The position numbers were made by a program, and so were the translations under genes. From an uncultured Sutterella sp. (GTDB lineage Bacteria; Pseudomonadota; Gammaproteobacteria; Burkholderiales; Burkholderiaceae_F), in the NCBI GenBank assembly GCA_949287305.1, contig CASEFX010000036.1, positions 1 through 64,000 of the forward strand: a stretch of DNA of 64,000 nucleotides, read 5' to 3'. The notes below the pieces were generated by a model. The model made no database searches, was not told the origin of the DNA, and saw nothing but the letters and a program-made list of their open reading frames with translations. Positions 33,047 to 62,595 of this stretch are shown piece by piece. Numbering within the stretch: the stretch's first letter is position 1; each line of letters starts with the position of its first letter.

Positions 33047-33380
33047 ACAAAACGCAACGTTTTGCACACCAATATTCGGGTTTTTTCTAATTTCATGGAA
33101 AAAGCTTCGCCTTTCGCGTAGCATGAAGCTACGGCATGACAGAGGTGCGGCGGAAACACCGTTTCTTTTGCCGAAGCACTGATTCGCCGAATTTTGCCGA
33201 AAAGAGCCGCAGGAAGATTCTCCTCGCCTCCCTCTCTGTTATTTTTTATTCACGGCATTCCGCAAGGCCTCAAAGAAGATCTGACGGTCCTTCCTTTTGC
33301 TTTAACCCTCCGCTTCCCTCTTTTTCTTCTCCTGAAGAAGAGGTCTAAGCAGAAATCTTTTCAGGAAGTGATCATTTTTC
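33047..33380. other. AT-rich intergenic region before the FlhDC-like operon
   Basis: No gene seen. A CAAAACG/CGTTTTG hairpin (33048-33064) follows nth at once and may be its terminator with the nearby T-run. GCTTC/GAAGC arms flank a 33105-33130 segment. The AT-rich stretch 33085-33130 is the likely promoter zone, but no clear -35/-10 pair is found. Confidence 0.4.
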
Positions 33381-34106
33381 ATGAGCACGTTTCACACGCC
33401 CGCGAGTCTGCGGAACTATCAGCGCCTGATCGAGCGCATCGACGCCGAGGCCATGCGCGAGGAAACCTCGTTTCCGAAGTCGCTCACGGCGACGGTTCCC
33501 GAGAGCTTCCGCTTTCCCGTCGCCCGCTTCGAGCGGGAGGCCTGGACTTATCTGCGCTCGGTCGCAAACGAGTCGCTTCCGGTTCTTCACACGCTTCTTC
33601 GCTGCTCGCCCTACTTTGCGGAACGCCTTCGCACGGCCCCCGACGCCCTGATCGAACATCTCTCGTCGCCCGCCTTTTCGAGCTTTCGCGCGGAGTTTGA
33701 CGAAGCGGTACTGCTCGCGCACTTTGAAGAAACGGCGACGCCCCCGCTTCGCTCCGACCATCTCCTTCGCCTGCGGCTTGAAAACGTACACGCGCGCGCC
33801 TTCACGATGCACTACTGGATGAGCGCGCACACGCTCGCGACCCACGGCGAAACGGCCTGCGCGGCGGTCTTCGGGCTTTCGAAGGACGTCTGCCGGGCGC
33901 TTCGCGCCGCGACGCCCGCGCGGATCATGTCCTACTGCGCCGAGCATCCGAGCGTCTTTCACTTCTCGATGGAGGTAAAGGACCTCTGGCATCTTCTCGC
34001 CGACTTCGACCGGGAACGACCGGCCGACGCGGGCGAATCCGAACGCTTTCTCGAACGCGTTCTCACGCTTGTGCATGCGGGTCAGCCCGCAGAGGAGGTC
34101 CTATGA
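33381..34106 (+). CDS. Divergent FlhD-like regulator with N-terminal extension
   Basis: A 241-residue mostly helical protein. Residues about 125-241 follow the whole of FlhD by eye: a helix HLLRLRLENVHARAF, then AAVFGLSKDV where FlhD has AMFRLGINEEM, a helix RALRAATPARIMSY, the beta element VFHFSMEVKDL where FlhD has VCHFRFDSHQT, and a C-terminal QPAEE tail like FlhD QPEEA. The first 125 residues have no match I know. The next gene, overlapping by four bases, is FlhC-like, in the standard flhD-flhC order. AGGAAG (33363-33368) precedes the ATG. FlhD/FlhC relatives outside flagellar loci include SetD/SetC of the SXT element. Targets are unknown. Confidence 0.6.
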   Translation: MSTFHTPASLRNYQRLIERIDAEAMREETSFPKSLTATVPESFRFPVARFEREAWTYLRSVANESLPVLHTLLRCSPYFAERLRTAPDALIEHLSSPAFSSFRAEFDEAVLLAHFEETATPPLRSDHLLRLRLENVHARAFTMHYWMSAHTLATHGETACAAVFGLSKDVCRALRAATPARIMSYCAEHPSVFHFSMEVKDLWHLLADFDRERPADAGESERFLERVLTLVHAGQPAEEVL

Positions 34107-34846
34107 CCGAAAAACCCTCGGCTCTGCGCACGGCCGTCTGGGAGCGGACCCGAAAGGGAGAATCGGTCTCCGACATTGCCCGGGCGCTTGGCACGGACGA
34201 GCGCATCGTGACGCTCATCGCCAACACCTTCGAGCGGCTCGAATCGAAGCGCCGAAGCGGCGAGCGGCCGCTCCCCGACATGCGCGACGCCTTGAACGCC
34301 GTGCGGGGCGAAAAGGATCCGAAACTCTTTCGCTCGGAAAAGCTGCGCCTTTTCCGCAGCTACCTGCTGGCACTTCTCGGCACGAAGCGCGGGCTCGTGC
34401 GGATTCTGAACGGCGTCACCGACAGTCAGGCGCGCTCCGCCTGCCTTGCGGCGGAGCGCTCGGGCGTTCGCCGCGGCGAGACGCTTCCTGACGACGTCTA
34501 CCGCGCGATGCTTGAGAGCGCCTTCGCGGCCTTCTATCTTCGGATTGCAGGGGACGAAGTCTTTGACGAGGCGAACGTCCCGCACGTGCTCGAAGCCTGG
34601 GGAAAAACCGTCGAAGCCTTCTCGGGAAACGCCTTTTCGGCCTTCCATCCGCATTTGGACGACGCGTCGCTCTTTTTCGAAACGGCGCTTCGCATCCGCG
34701 AGGGCGTCAAACGCTACCGGCGCTGTCCCTTCTGCAAAACAGTGCATCTCATTGATGCGGAGGAGAAGGCCGACGACGCGCGCTTTTCCAACTGCCCCTT
34801 CTGTCAGTTTCGCTATCTCTCGGAAAACGCCTTTCGTCCCAAGTGA
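34103..34846 (+). CDS. Divergent FlhC-like zinc-binding transcription factor
   Basis: A 247-residue protein. The N-terminal 85 residues contain a helix-turn-helix (SVSDIARALGTDERIVTLIA). The rest follows FlhC: a GxxLP turn before a long helix (RRGETLPDDVYRAMLESAFAAF cut at about 124-145), a hydrophobic helix VLEAWGKTVEAF, and a C-terminal zinc ribbon with Cys208, Cys211, Cys231 and Cys234, where CKTVHLIDA parallels FlhC CGGNFITHA. AGAGGAGG (34091-34098) is a strong ribosome binding site. FlhD and FlhC act as one complex, so this gene and the previous one probably do too. The match was made by eye. Confidence 0.65.
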   Translation: MTEKPSALRTAVWERTRKGESVSDIARALGTDERIVTLIANTFERLESKRRSGERPLPDMRDALNAVRGEKDPKLFRSEKLRLFRSYLLALLGTKRGLVRILNGVTDSQARSACLAAERSGVRRGETLPDDVYRAMLESAFAAFYLRIAGDEVFDEANVPHVLEAWGKTVEAFSGNAFSAFHPHLDDASLFFETALRIREGVKRYRRCPFCKTVHLIDAEEKADDARFSNCPFCQFRYLSENAFRPK

Positions 34847-34962: not shown

Positions 34963-35754
34963 ATGACCTTCAACCTTCAACGTCTTCTCGCGCTCAAGGA
35001 TAAGCGCGCCATCCCGCCGCCCGCGCCGCCGCAGGCGAGCGAGGCCGAGCGCGAAGCGCTCTTTCGGGAAATTCGTTCGACGCTCGCGCGCCGCGAACTC
35101 AATCCCCTCGACGTGTCGGCGGCTCTCGCGTCGCTTCTCGAAGCGGGCCTCTCGCAGGCGGAAATCGCCCGCAACGTGGGCCGCTCTCCCGCCTACGTGT
35201 CGACCTATCTGGAACTCGCCGCGCTTCCCGAAGCGCTCGAGCGTCTCGTGCGCGAAGGACGTCTGCGCGACCCCTCGACCGTGGTCGTTCTTAAGCGCTT
35301 CTTTGCCGAGTGCCCCGACGAGGCCGAGGCGCAGGTCCGACGTGCCATGCGGGAAAACGGAACGATCTCCCGCGCCGCCGCCCGAAAACTTCTCTCCGAC
35401 GCAATCCATGCCAAGCGCCCGCACCGCACGGACGCCGGCGTCGTATCCCGTGCCGACGAAGCCGCGCACCACTTCTCGCGCGACGCCTATTGGGACGCGC
35501 TCCCCGACGTGACGGGCGGACGCGACTGCCGCGCCATCTCGCGGTTCGAGCGTCGTCACATCGTCGTCGAATGGGTGGACTCTGAAGACCGCCTGCGCTC
35601 GGGCTATCTCACCCCGAACTGGCTCTCGAACGATCCGAACGTCGTGTGCGTCACCTCGAAGGGACGGCTCTTTGAAGTGAACGTCGCGCATCTGACGATC
35701 GCCGGAATCTTTCCCTCTTCCGAAATCGACCTCGGACGCCTGAGCCATGAATAA
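34963..35754 (+). CDS. KorB/ParB-like DNA-binding protein lacking the N-terminal ParB domain
   Basis: A 263-residue protein. Residues about 35-125 match the ParB/KorB helix-turn-helix module (ASLLEAGLSQAEIARNVG, SPAYVSTYLELAALPEAL, VREGRLRD). The C-terminal 55 residues are beta-rich (HIVVEWVDSED, RSGYLTPNW, LFEVNVAHLTIAGIF), like the SH3-type dimer domain of KorB. The N-terminal CTP-binding domain with GxRRxR is missing, and no parA gene is nearby, so a role as repressor is more likely than partition. GGAG (34950-34953) is 9 bp before the ATG. Confidence 0.65.
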   Translation: MTFNLQRLLALKDKRAIPPPAPPQASEAEREALFREIRSTLARRELNPLDVSAALASLLEAGLSQAEIARNVGRSPAYVSTYLELAALPEALERLVREGRLRDPSTVVVLKRFFAECPDEAEAQVRRAMRENGTISRAAARKLLSDAIHAKRPHRTDAGVVSRADEAAHHFSRDAYWDALPDVTGGRDCRAISRFERRHIVVEWVDSEDRLRSGYLTPNWLSNDPNVVCVTSKGRLFEVNVAHLTIAGIFPSSEIDLGRLSHE

Positions 35755-36067
35755 GAACGCCCTCACGAAAGCGAACATCACGACGCTGCACTTTCTGCTC
35801 TACGTGCTTGCGCGGGCCGAGCGGCCGTCCGCGCGCACGCTCTGCGACATCAGCGGCCTCTCGCGCGTGACGATCTACCGCTACTTCGAAACGCTCGAAG
35901 CCATGTACGGAATCCGCGTGAAGTTTCACCCGATCGCGACGGGGCGTCGCGGCCGCACGGGCTACTACGCGCTCGAGAGTTGGGGAATCCTCAATGAAGC
36001 GGCCTTTTTGCGCTTCATGGATGAAAAACTCGAAGAACTCCACGGCAGGGAGCACGAAACGGCATGA
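35747..36067 (+). CDS. Small winged-helix DNA-binding protein
   Basis: A 106-residue protein with a winged helix: ITTLHFLLYVLARAERP, then ARTLCDISGLSRVTIYRYFETLE as the recognition unit and a wing from GIRVKFH to GYYALE. The C-terminus is a short acidic helix. It overlaps the KorB-like gene by 8 bp and the next gene by 4 bp (ATGA). It is probably a regulator or an architectural partner of the operon products. No family name is certain. Confidence 0.65.
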   Translation: MNKNALTKANITTLHFLLYVLARAERPSARTLCDISGLSRVTIYRYFETLEAMYGIRVKFHPIATGRRGRTGYYALESWGILNEAAFLRFMDEKLEELHGREHETA

Positions 36068-36585
36068 CCACGCAACCCCCATCCTCCAAGCACGGCTTTC
36101 GGGCGATTCCGCTCGAAGACTTCGACCGGGAGGCCGCGGAGCATTTCGCCCGCACGAACGGCACGAGCGTCGAGGAGGCGCTTTTCGAGTACGCGCGCGA
36201 GCAGTATCTGAATCAACTCCTCACCGAGTGGCAGAGCGCCTCGCAACTCTTTTGCCGCTTCATCGAAAGGATGGCGCCCCACGCGTCGCCCGCCGAAATC
36301 GTTCTTGCGCTTCGCGAGACCGCCAAGACCTACGACGACTTCGTGACGGCGGGCCTTTTGATGCGCGACGGCGTGAGGCTCCTCTTTCTCGTCAACGAGC
36401 TCGCGAGCCGCATCCTGAGCGTGCCTGCCCTGCGCGAAGAAGAGGAAAAGGCCGCCCGAACGAAAAACGAAGCGGCGCTTCGCTTTGCGCTCTTTGAAAA
36501 ACTCCTCCCCAAGGCCCTCTACGGCCTCGTCGTGCGAAACGCACACTGCGCCGCCGACTGGCACAAACTCTATCCGGGCACCTGA
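36064..36585 (+). CDS. Unknown helical protein, last gene of the operon
   Basis: A 173-residue soluble protein, predicted almost all helical, that I do not recognise. The charged N-terminus (FRAIPLEDFDREAAEHFAR) is followed by four or five amphipathic helices and a C-terminal AHCAADWHKLYPGT with a His and Cys cluster. It is translationally coupled to the winged-helix gene. Codon use is like the host core genes, arguing against recent transfer. By position it belongs to the FlhDC-like/KorB-like regulatory group. Confidence 0.6.
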   Translation: MTTQPPSSKHGFRAIPLEDFDREAAEHFARTNGTSVEEALFEYAREQYLNQLLTEWQSASQLFCRFIERMAPHASPAEIVLALRETAKTYDDFVTAGLLMRDGVRLLFLVNELASRILSVPALREEEEKAARTKNEAALRFALFEKLLPKALYGLVVRNAHCAADWHKLYPGT

Positions 36586-36605
36586 CAACTTGGCCCCCTC
36601 TTTGC

Positions 36606-36645
36606 AACCCGCCCCAAGACGCCGTCGTCCCGGCGGGTTCTCTCT
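36606..36645 (+). terminator. Terminator-like hairpin ending the operon
   Basis: AACCCGCC/GGCGGGTT arms with an 18-base loop that can itself fold. The downstream CTCTCTC is only moderately T-rich. Confidence 0.55.
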
Positions 36646-36946
36646 CAAAAAAGGCGATGTTATTTTCCCGGAAAAAATCGTCGCCTCTTCTCCTCTCATT
36701 TCTCATTTTTTGAAAAATCCACTCCCCTCGAAAAGAGAAGAACTTTTCCTACACTCCTATTTTGCTTTTTCACGGCTTCGGAATTTGATACGGTCTTCAG
36801 CCTTCACGGCTCTTTTCGCCGCCCTGCGGGAGGGAACGTCGTTTCGACTCATTATGGTTATCCCTAAGCAACAAACGTTCCTCGAGAACGCACCGTCGCC
36901 CTCTCTCGGGCGTCCTTTTCCTCTCACTTTCGGAGACCACTACGCA
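36646..36946. other. AT-rich intergenic region
   Basis: No gene seen. The segment is clearly richer in A and T than its neighbours and has several A/T runs (36650-36780), consistent with promoters for the downstream two-HTH gene. An open frame extends upstream of 36947 but has no start with a ribosome binding site and no homology I can see. Confidence 0.4.
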
Positions 36947-37315
36947 ATGAGCAATCAATCGTTGGAAACCGCTTTTCACCGTCACCTTCCCGACCGCATT
37001 CTGTCCCGAGAAATCCGTGAGCAGGCGCTCGAGCTCTTCGAGCAGGGGCTCGGGCACAAGTCGGTGGCGAAGCGCCTGGCGATTTCCCCGCACACGACGC
37101 GCGACTGGGGACGCGCCTTCCGCGAAAACCGCTTCTTCCCGGCCGTCTCGAAGCACCTCTACTGCTACGACGACGATGCCAAATCGGCCGTTTGGGCCCT
37201 TTCGCTCAAGGGGTTCACCATCAGTGAAATTTCTGAAAAGACGAACATCAGCCGCAGCACCTGCTACGCCTGGATCCGCGCGAAGCGCGACGCCAACGCC
37301 CGCCGTGCGAGCTGA
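36947..37315 (+). CDS. Two-HTH protein, transposase-OrfA-like
   Basis: A 122-residue protein with two consecutive helix-turn-helix units: QALELFEQGLGHKSVAKRLA with SPHTTRDWGRAF, and AVWALSLKGFTISEISEKT with ISRSTCYAWIRAKR. This is the build of IS3-type OrfA proteins, but there is no OrfB, no terminal inverted repeats are seen, and it has its own CGGAGA site (36931-36936) and terminator. It may be a domesticated DNA-binding protein. Confidence 0.6.
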   Translation: MSNQSLETAFHRHLPDRILSREIREQALELFEQGLGHKSVAKRLAISPHTTRDWGRAFRENRFFPAVSKHLYCYDDDAKSAVWALSLKGFTISEISEKTNISRSTCYAWIRAKRDANARRAS

Positions 37316-37328
37316 CTGACCGGAATAG

Positions 37329-37360
37329 GCCGGCGCAACAAAAAAGCGCCGGCTTTATTG
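37329..37360 (+). terminator. Intrinsic terminator
   Basis: A perfect 8-bp stem GCCGGCGC/GCGCCGGC with an A-rich loop, followed by TTTATTG. Confidence 0.8.
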
Positions 37361-37407
37361 TGTTCGAAGGAAGATGGTATTCTGGACGTTTTTGGTTGAG
37401 ACACAGC

Positions 37408-37429
37408 GCGGATCATCTCTAAGATCCGC
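37408..37429. repeat. Inverted repeat GCGGATC/GATCCGC
   Basis: 7-bp arms around an 8-bp loop in the AT-rich gap before the AAA ATPase gene. It could be an operator or a hairpin. Confidence 0.4.
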
Positions 37430-37553
37430 TTTCCAAAGAAGACTTTGCTTTTTCCGACAATCCTTTTTGATCATCGCCATCACATGAATAACATACTTGT
37501 TACTAACTGATGCGTTACCATTTTGGCATCCGTACAGAAAATGGGACCCCATC

Positions 37554-38714
37554 GTGTCGTACAACGCCAAGATCCTCCCGCCGTTTGAGTTCGGCGTTCC
37601 CGTCAGCGGCGAAACCTTCGCGGGCCGCACGGTGGAAACGCGGCATCTCTGCGCCAACTTTCGCCACGGGATCAATACGACCCTGATTTCGCCGCGTCGG
37701 ACAGGGAAAACGTCGCTTGTTAACCGGACCATCCGTCTTTCCGAAAACGAGTCTCTCCGCATCGCTCGGTTCGATGCGCTGAAGTGCGCAAGCGACGAAG
37801 AATTTCTCACCGCCTTCGCAATCGCCGTCATACGGGCCGCGTCCGTCCTGCAGGAAAAACAGATGGCGTTGACCCAGCGCTTCCTGGCCCGGTTCGCCCC
37901 GAAGATCTCCCTCGGTACGGATTCAACAAACGACTTCTCCGTTTCGCTCGAAATCAAAAACATCCGATCCGAAGCCGAAAAAATTCTTCAACTGCCGGAA
38001 GACATCGCGGCCGCTGAAAACATTCGCATCGTCGTCTGCATCGACGAATTCCAGCAAATCGGAGAATTCGACGACTCCTTGTCCTTCCAAAAGCTCCTCC
38101 GCACCGTGTGGCAGCTTCAGAAGCATGTTTCATATTGCCGCGGCAGTCAAGGCAAGATGGAGAGACTCTTCGGCCCGCAAAACAGTCCCTTTTATCGCTT
38201 CGGCGACATGATGCACCTGCAGAGGATCAGACGAGACGACTGGGTCGAATTCATCATCCGACGCTTCAGGGATTCCGGCAAATCCATCACCGAAGCGATG
38301 GCCGGGCACATCGCCGACGCGGTCGAAAACCATCCGGCTTACGTACAGCACCTCGCGTGGTACGTGTGGCTGGAAACGAGCGGGGAAGTCCGGGAAGAGT
38401 CGTGCAACGTTGCGATCAAGAAGATGTTGGACGCCTACCACCCGATCTTTGCCGAGCGAGTTTCCCGATTGACGCTGCGGCAAAGAAATTTCCTCAAAGC
38501 TCTTGACGACGGCGTGCAAGCCGGCTTCACCCGACAAAAAACGCTCGAGCAATACCGATTGGGAAACTCGGCGAACGTCGCCCGAGTGAAGAAGTCGCTG
38601 ATCGAAAAAGCACTGATCGCGCTCGTTGACACCGATCGGTGGGTCACCACGGACCCGGTGTTCCGACTTTGGCTTCGCCAAAGGTTCTGGTGCGCCTCCG
38701 GACCTTCTTTCTGA
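37554..38714 (+). CDS. AAA ATPase (archaeal-type/STAND-like), accessory
   Basis: A 386-residue ATPase with Walker A SPRRTGKTSL (near residue 42) and Walker B IRIVVCIDEFQQI (about 160-172), then a sensor region and a C-terminal winged helix (LTLRQRNFLKALDDG ... WVTTDPVFRLWLR). This is the layout of the archaeal ATPase (PF01637) family often found in accessory DNA. The GTG at 37554 is the best start because the reading just upstream is non-homologous, but its ribosome binding site is weak. GC is lower than in the flanking genes, which suggests transfer. Function unknown; defence or mobile-element roles are possible. Confidence 0.7.
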   Translation: MSYNAKILPPFEFGVPVSGETFAGRTVETRHLCANFRHGINTTLISPRRTGKTSLVNRTIRLSENESLRIARFDALKCASDEEFLTAFAIAVIRAASVLQEKQMALTQRFLARFAPKISLGTDSTNDFSVSLEIKNIRSEAEKILQLPEDIAAAENIRIVVCIDEFQQIGEFDDSLSFQKLLRTVWQLQKHVSYCRGSQGKMERLFGPQNSPFYRFGDMMHLQRIRRDDWVEFIIRRFRDSGKSITEAMAGHIADAVENHPAYVQHLAWYVWLETSGEVREESCNVAIKKMLDAYHPIFAERVSRLTLRQRNFLKALDDGVQAGFTRQKTLEQYRLGNSANVARVKKSLIEKALIALVDTDRWVTTDPVFRLWLRQRFWCASGPSF

Positions 38715-38787
38715 AGTACCGGTACAGTACACGTCACTTCTCCTTGGAAAACGCCGGACCCCGTCCCTCTCCCCTGATAGTCAATTT

Positions 38788-38829
38788 CCGATTAACTTAA
38801 TCGCCGATTGACTAAATTTCCGATTGACT
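38788..38829. repeat. Three direct repeats of CCGATTRACT, 16-bp period
   Basis: Copies at 38788 (CCGATTAACT), 38804 and 38820 (CCGATTGACT) are spaced exactly 16 bp start to start. A reverse half AGTCAAT precedes them (38779-38785). The array lies 80-190 bp before the peptide transporter operon and looks like an operator or iteron set. Confidence 0.65.
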
Positions 38830-38918
38830 TCCCGCAGGGACACGGAGGCACTCCGGAAAAAGTACCGTGGTTTTCCTTGTTTTGACGGCTCGTCACGAAA
38901 GACCGTTCGGATAGAATG

Positions 38919-62106: not shown

Positions 62107-62183
62107 TGGCGGAGTGGACGGGACTCGAACCCGCGACCCCCGGCGTGACAGGCCGGTATTCTAACCAACTGAACTACCACTCC
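62107..62183 (-). tRNA. tRNA-Asp (GTC), copy 3 in transcription order
   Basis: A 77-nt tRNA with CCA encoded. Acceptor GGAGTGG/CCACTCC, anticodon loop CTGTCAC giving GTC, T-loop GGTTCGAGTC. It is identical to the next two copies. Confidence 0.95.
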
Positions 62184-62219
62184 ACGGCATGCAAACGAAT
62201 TGTCGGCGACTTGTTGCGT

Positions 62220-62296
62220 TGGCGGAGTGGACGGGACTCGAACCCGCGACCCCCGGCGTGACAGGCCGGTATTCTAACCAACTGAACTACCACTCC
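62220..62296 (-). tRNA. tRNA-Asp (GTC), copy 2
   Basis: Sequence identical to the copies on either side, CCA encoded. The spacers to its neighbours are 36 and 40 bp. Confidence 0.95.
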
Positions 62297-62336
62297 ACAC
62301 AAGTGCCTTGGCCTTCGCGTCGACGTTTTGAGCAGT

Positions 62337-62413
62337 TGGCGGAGTGGACGGGACTCGAACCCGCGACCCCCGGCGTGACAGGCCGGTATTCTAACCAACT
62401 GAACTACCACTCC
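62337..62413 (-). tRNA. tRNA-Asp (GTC), copy 1
   Basis: Identical 77-nt tRNA. It lies 106 bp after tRNA-Val in transcription order. Confidence 0.95.
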
Positions 62414-62519
62414 GTTCTTTCAAACCGTCTGGCGTTTCAGCCTAGGAGGCGTATTATCTCAATTTCCTGTCTTTTTGTCAAGAGTCTCTGTTCAAAAAAC
62501 TTGAAAAAAGTCGAGAAAC

Positions 62520-62595
62520 TGGTGGATGCTGAGAGTCTCGAACTCCCGACCTACGCCTTGTAAGGGCGCCGCTCTACCAACTGAGCTAAGCATCC
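62520..62595 (-). tRNA. tRNA-Val (TAC)
   Basis: A 76-nt tRNA with encoded CCA. Acceptor GGATGCT/AGCATCC, anticodon loop CTTACAA giving TAC, T-loop AGTTCGAGAC. Confidence 0.95.

Follow-up and report, generated by a model that had tools for sequence, protein, structure and literature searches.

An overlapping FlhD-like/FlhC-like gene pair in a Sutterella genome

We analyzed a stretch of 64,000 nt from a Sutterella sp. genome (the window; all coordinates below are positions in it, unless another contig is named). It carries two overlapping genes whose products are an FlhD/AcaD-like subunit (P1) and an FlhC/AcaC-like subunit (P2), encoded at the head of a five-gene cassette:

33381..34106, + strand: P1, FlhD/AcaD-like subunit of 241 amino acids (aa), with a degenerate first FlhD repeat at ~46-118 and a second at ~141-212
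34103..34846, + strand: P2, FlhC/AcaC-like subunit of 247 aa, with an extra N-terminal helix-turn-helix (HTH) at ~5-52, an FlhC-like helical body at ~78-200 and a CxxC-x19-CxxC zinc ribbon at 208-234

Both open reading frames (ORFs) are intact and lie on the + strand with the D gene first. They overlap in an ATGA at 34103-34106, and each start codon is preceded by a good Shine-Dalgarno sequence (AGGAAG for P1, GAGGAGG for P2). The characteristic motifs were located at 161-170 (AAVFGLSKDV) and 192-200 (VFHFSMEVK) in P1, and at 125-129 (GETLP) and C208-x2-C211-x19-C231-x2-C234 in P2. Adjacent and overlapping D-first genes, a D subunit with FlhD domain(s) and a C subunit that combines an FlhC-like body with a four-cysteine ribbon are all traits of the AcaDC/SetDC type of activator. 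The flhD-flhC order of the pair that the original prediction had proposed was thus borne out by the ORFs and motifs, and by the profile matches above chance described below.

Profile comparisons place P1 with FlhD and P2 with FlhC

Profile comparison was needed because single-sequence methods are too weak for these two proteins. Single-sequence searches of Pfam, NCBIfam, PHROGs and PDB returned no significant FlhDC match for either; P2 had no FlhC match in Pfam or NCBIfam, and the NCBIfam FlhD model aligned in register with residues 141-212 of P1 at E 0.21 (11.7 bits vs. a cut-off of 90). When compared by hhalign with a profile of FlhD plus AcaD, P1 matched with a probability of 93% (score 50.8, E 3e-7), the maximal score in 100 column shuffles being 20.6, and its C-terminal half alone reached E 1.8e-7 against the D profile. 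P2 matched the AcaC profile with a probability of 84% (score 42, E 7e-6; shuffles up to 19.8) and a profile of all mobile-element C subunits with a probability of 93% (E 3e-7). Cross-comparisons of P1 with C profiles and of P2 with D profiles were null. In a ranking of 114 proteins, with ~110 decoys among them, P1 came first with the D profile and P2 second with the C profile, behind one true C subunit that is itself part of that profile. Further, all four cysteines and ~24 other positions are invariant in the alignment of P2 with three AcaC proteins. Judged by their sequences, P1 is a member of the FlhD family and P2 of the FlhC family, with a similarity above chance, and an ordered pair in which each protein matches the right partner is stronger evidence of this kind than either protein alone.

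P1 and P2 resemble activators of conjugative elements

In these comparisons, the nearest relatives of P1 and P2 are FlhDC-family activators of conjugative elements, namely AcaD/AcaC of IncA/C plasmids, and not flagellar FlhDC: P2, which also matched C subunits from Burkholderiales tra loci, gave a null result against the flagellar FlhC profile alone (probability 0.09%). AcaD of pRA1 (L114 40678-41283) has 202 aa and a Pfam FlhD match at 106-181. Its N-terminal half matched its own C-terminal half (E 8e-10) as well as the FlhD-domain profile (E 5e-9), and AcaD therefore reads as a tandem FlhD duplication, an arrangement that points to D2C2, instead of FlhD4C2, as the make-up of the complex. No statement of this tandem nature was found in those parts of the AcaCD literature that were read.

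The alignment of P1 covers nearly all of AcaD, with residues 46-118 placed over the first of its two repeats; taken alone, this segment matched weakly (E 0.004). The two-repeat helix pattern of the P1 AlphaFold model, which is otherwise poor, agrees with the AcaD layout. AcaC lacks a counterpart to the extra 75-80 N-terminal residues of P2. In these residues, AlphaFold predicted with moderate confidence a three-helix HTH (helices 5-17/22-29/33-52), with residues ~11-30 at predicted local distance difference test (pLDDT) values of 77-81, and this additional domain appears to be new. Accordingly, of the two N-terminal extensions that had been called new, the description holds for that of P2, absent from AcaC, and fails for that of P1, for which AcaD has a matching N-terminal half.

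The remainder of the cassette and its flanks

The pair is preceded by an intergenic region and followed by three further genes:

33047..33380, + strand: intergenic, between the endonuclease III gene (nth) and the P1 gene; 334 bp without a credible gene, probable promoter/regulatory region
34963..35754, + strand: ParB/KorB-like protein without the ParB N-terminal domain (Pfam KorB E 8e-14, no ParB_N)
35747..36067, + strand: HTH_43-type winged-helix protein, 106 aa (Pfam HTH_43 E 7e-7)
36064..36585, + strand: 173-aa protein, last cassette gene, with an ATGA overlap with the preceding gene and no family match

No sigma-70-like site was scored in the intergenic region. The KorB-like gene has its natural start at 34963, with a GGAG ahead of it, and alignment of its product with pRA1 ParB and with full-length ParBs of related-genus elements revealed a clean loss of the N-terminal domain. 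For the 173-aa protein, library scans returned no family match and no homologue was found in the mobile elements compared. A terminator-like stem lies 3' of its gene at 36620-36636. Since the HTH_43 and 173-aa genes each begin inside the end of the preceding gene, the five cassette genes very probably form one operon.

On the left, the cassette is flanked by nth, itself preceded by ferredoxin and reductase genes, and on the right by a separate HTH gene, an ATPase gene and an ABC transporter operon. A scan of the cassette and its neighbouring genes detected no tra, conjugation or integrase genes. The spot 3' of the cassette (36586-38900) is variable: the window holds an AAA ATPase gene there (37497-38714), and the sister genome introduced below a different ~4.7 kb (L005 13174-17869).

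The cassette is rare and under purifying selection

The cassette was found in 2 of 61 relatives, both among the 12 genomes of the genus: the window's own genome (G000) and a sister genome (G001). The other ten genus genomes had no P1/P2 match, and all nine of the nth neighbourhoods that were read retain nth with no cassette downstream. The pair also occurs, with 98-99% protein identity, on a contig of a Sutterella metagenome-assembled genome. A contig-collection scan and a 399-genome search of the order yielded no close relative beyond the sister genome; likewise, P1, P2 and the KorB-like protein had no homologue in plasmids by tblastn and none in viral-contig scans.

Between G000 and G001, the five genes differ by 16 nonsynonymous and 51 synonymous changes, which corresponds to a pooled ratio of nonsynonymous to synonymous rates (dN/dS) of ~0.1, as in the housekeeping neighbours. 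The GC content of the cassette equals that of the host. Given this dN/dS and the host-like GC content, the cassette is under purifying selection and is being maintained, not decaying. The nth-P1 intergenic region of the sister genome also has 334 bp and is nearly identical.

Cassette parts recur in conjugative elements

A ParA-ParB-HTH_43 block forms a core of the IncA plasmid pRA1 and of mobile elements of related bacteria, and the HTH_43 protein of the cassette belongs to the same family as the protein encoded after parB in pRA1. It also matched a protein encoded after parB in the L102 element (phmmer E 9e-9) and, more weakly, one in L103 (E 0.02); from ORF reading, L102 carries relaxase/coupling-type genes and L103 an integrase and transfer-type genes. 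In two other Burkholderiales genomes, FlhD-like/FlhC-like pairs lie directly upstream of F-type tra operons: L132 (G332 contig C145 24179-24987) and L133 (G135 contig C8, ~113.1-113.7 kb, 113489 region). Since the KorB-like and HTH_43 proteins are shared with such elements and FlhDC-like pairs head tra operons, every part of the cassette that can be recognised belongs to the regulation of conjugative elements.

These tra-heading pairs resemble P1/P2 in the adjacency of an FlhD-like and an FlhC-like gene and in a ribbon, CKxCKxxYxxDT, similar to that of P2 (CPFCKTVHLIDA). They differ in their short, single-repeat D subunit, in the tra genes directly downstream and in that no ParB or HTH_43 homologue was found in the stretch examined. 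AcaD/AcaC, the master activator of IncA/C conjugative plasmids (PMC4207636), shares with P1/P2 the D-then-C order and a D subunit of ~200 aa with two FlhD repeats. AcaC has the same FlhC body and four-cysteine ribbon as P2, and the IncA/C element also carries parA-parB(KorB)-HTH_43. In contrast to the cassette, acaDC belongs to a transmissible plasmid, where it sits at the acr1/acr2 module; AcaC has no extra N-terminal HTH and identity is 19-25%; in pRA1, ParB is full length and accompanied by ParA, and the parB block lies away from acaDC.

SetDC of the SXT/R391 integrative and conjugative elements (ICEs), SgaDC of SGI1 and SetD/SetC of the IncT plasmid Rts1 are likewise element-encoded two-subunit activators of the FlhDC family (PMC4542580, PMC10838148); the SetCD and AcaCD motifs are unrelated to one another. 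Unlike in SetDC-type elements, no SetR-like repressor, int/xis, mobI or tra genes were seen adjoining the window pair. BisD/BisC of ICEclc offers a further parallel, an FlhC-like and a ParB-domain protein that cooperate in the regulatory module of a proteobacterial ICE (PMC7423338), whereas in the cassette the FlhD-like, FlhC-like and ParB-like proteins are encoded by three separate genes. With flagellar FlhD/FlhC (Escherichia coli, 1G8E/2AVU; Cupriavidus necator, 8J56), the pair shares the core FlhD repeat in register and, in P2, the GxxLP turn and CxxC...CxxC ribbon; it departs from them in its doubled D subunit, the extra HTH in the C subunit and the lack of a significant match between P2 and flagellar FlhC.

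Flagellar and transfer genes in the genus

Statements on the window's own genome rest on family searches. These detected neither FlhC (Pfam) nor FlhA (FHIPEP), other flagellar families not having been searched. In line with this and with the missing FlhC Pfam match of P2, the proposal that P1/P2 belongs to the FlhDC family but does not regulate flagella is supported. FHIPEP-family proteins do occur in three other genus genomes, G001, G006 and G010 (L109, L110), beside secretion-system-like genes where these were read. These matches were considered as flagellar genes and rejected as such; next to the G010 copy, the ORFs look like genes for secretion-system chaperones (by reading, with no family scan).

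The window's genome harbours an F-type (MPF_F) transfer cluster on another contig (C26, ~164500-189000, L129-L130), between apparent host genes, and no FlhDC or ParB gene was found adjoining it. Of the 11 other genus genomes, 7 had a TraG_N match. No link between cassette and transfer cluster is drawn here, since within the genus each of cassette and TraG_N also occurs without a match to the other.

A probable orphan conjugation-type activator

Taken with its neighbours, the pair makes the cassette a probable chromosomal orphan member of the FlhDC-like conjugation-activator family (AcaDC/SetDC/SgaDC type). Its operon also encodes a ParB/KorB that has been shortened and an HTH_43 regulator, both of a kind that such elements carry, and the most likely description is an activator of the conjugation type that was domesticated or orphaned. 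The cassette is not carried on an element with tra or mobility genes, as activators of this type are. Several observations weigh against this reading. Identity of P1/P2 to AcaD/AcaC is just 19-25%, the four cysteines account for about half of the P2 score, with E 0.001-0.003 for the helical body by itself, and masking the cysteines lowers the match to E 0.005. In the structural test suggested with the original prediction, AlphaFold, run on two near-identical sequences, returned models at pLDDT 42-47 that are unusable save for the P2 HTH, and Foldseek with these poor models found nothing significant (C. necator FlhDC, 8J56, at E 2.8). No target promoter or shared motif emerged: an operator search comparing the P1 promoter region with the regions upstream of the tra cluster or of HTH2 did no better than shuffled sequences. 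Lastly, the sister genome has the cassette and no TraG_N match, while seven genus genomes have TraG_N and P1/P2 were matched in G000 and G001 only.

The low identity, the effect of cysteine masking and the lack of a confident structure would also suit an unrelated helical protein next to a zinc-ribbon protein, similar to FlhDC by convergence. This is very unlikely, as P1, which has no cysteine ribbon, still matches at E 3e-7 and each of the two proteins hits its proper counterpart, in the expected gene order, with nothing in the cross-comparisons. Descent from a flagellar FlhD4C2 regulator that remained after the lineage lost its flagella is the least plausible account. Canonical FlhC occurs in related genera of the same GTDB family, so that an ancestor may have had flagellar FlhDC, but P2 matches AcaC and not flagellar FlhC (84% vs. 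0.09%), the D subunit has the two-repeat layout of AcaD, and the KorB and HTH_43 neighbours are element genes. The original idea of a repurposed, non-flagellar activator was half right; an origin from flagellar FlhD4C2 is not supported, and sequence and neighbours point to the conjugation branch of the family, that is, to the AcaDC/SetDC/SgaDC activators of plasmids and ICEs.

Two further accounts accept this ancestry. Under the first, the cassette is a functionless remnant, the regulatory end of an ICE or plasmid that formerly had transfer genes and has since decayed, as the missing ParA, relaxase and tra genes alongside, the ParB without its N-terminal domain and an insertion after nth, at a site that varies, in just 2 of the 12 genomes of the genus might indicate. 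We regard this as unlikely, since neither of the two genomes, which are up to ~0.1 apart at synonymous sites, has a broken ORF among the five, synonymous changes outnumber nonsynonymous ones (51 vs. 16), and start sites and gene overlaps are kept. Under the second, P1/P2 would be a satellite-type regulator like SgaDC of SGI1, which senses or helps an incoming or resident conjugative element and activates its genes in trans, for instance the tra cluster on C26. SGI1 does carry SgaDC alongside its helper's AcaCD, and the C26 cluster has no FlhDC or ParB gene of its own found next to it; the occurrence of cassette and TraG_N without each other in the genus, the lack of a visible integrase in the cassette and the lack of an operator common to the P1 and tra-cluster promoter regions make such a role rather doubtful.

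For the orphan activator, a likely mechanism can be proposed by analogy. The two subunits of AcaCD purify together and are both required, and the complex binds across the -35 region (PMC4207636, PMC4542580). Two P1, each with two FlhD repeats, could hold two P2 in a pseudo-FlhD4C2 complex, in which P2 would use its FlhC body and zinc ribbon, perhaps also the extra N-terminal HTH, to contact DNA close to the -35 region, and the complex may then recruit sigma-70 RNA polymerase. The cassette contains a KorB domain, with neither ParB_N nor an adjacent parA as a ParABS system would have; since ParA and the N-terminal, cytidine triphosphate (CTP)-binding domain of ParB are absent, the shortened KorB-like protein and the winged-helix protein are probably co-regulators that bind DNA and tune the operon, and not partition proteins. 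Candidate targets of P1/P2 are host genes, the F-type C26 cluster, or an incoming or other mobile element. A more specific version, which we put forward tentatively, is that a gut bacterium domesticated a conjugation-type FlhDC activator with its ParB/HTH_43 partners to run host genes, P2 gaining a second DNA-binding domain and ParB turning from partition protein into co-regulator through loss of its CTP-binding domain.

FlhDC-like activators set the timing of conjugative plasmid and ICE transfer, resistance plasmids included, and a published survey found that mobile elements in Enterobacteriaceae and Vibrionaceae encode them (PMC4542580). The class is thus a published one; unusual here are a cassette that stands alone on the chromosome under selection, the shortening of its ParB and the additional HTH of its C subunit. 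Such a version in Sutterella suggests that a host can capture this activator class, and it forms a compact five-gene system; the tandem-FlhD layout common to AcaD and P1 would give a simple model of the complex, with two D and two C subunits instead of FlhD4C2.

Other features of the window

A row of tRNA genes lies at 62107-62595 on the - strand: three tRNA-Asp genes, whose model scores are equal, and one tRNA-Val gene.
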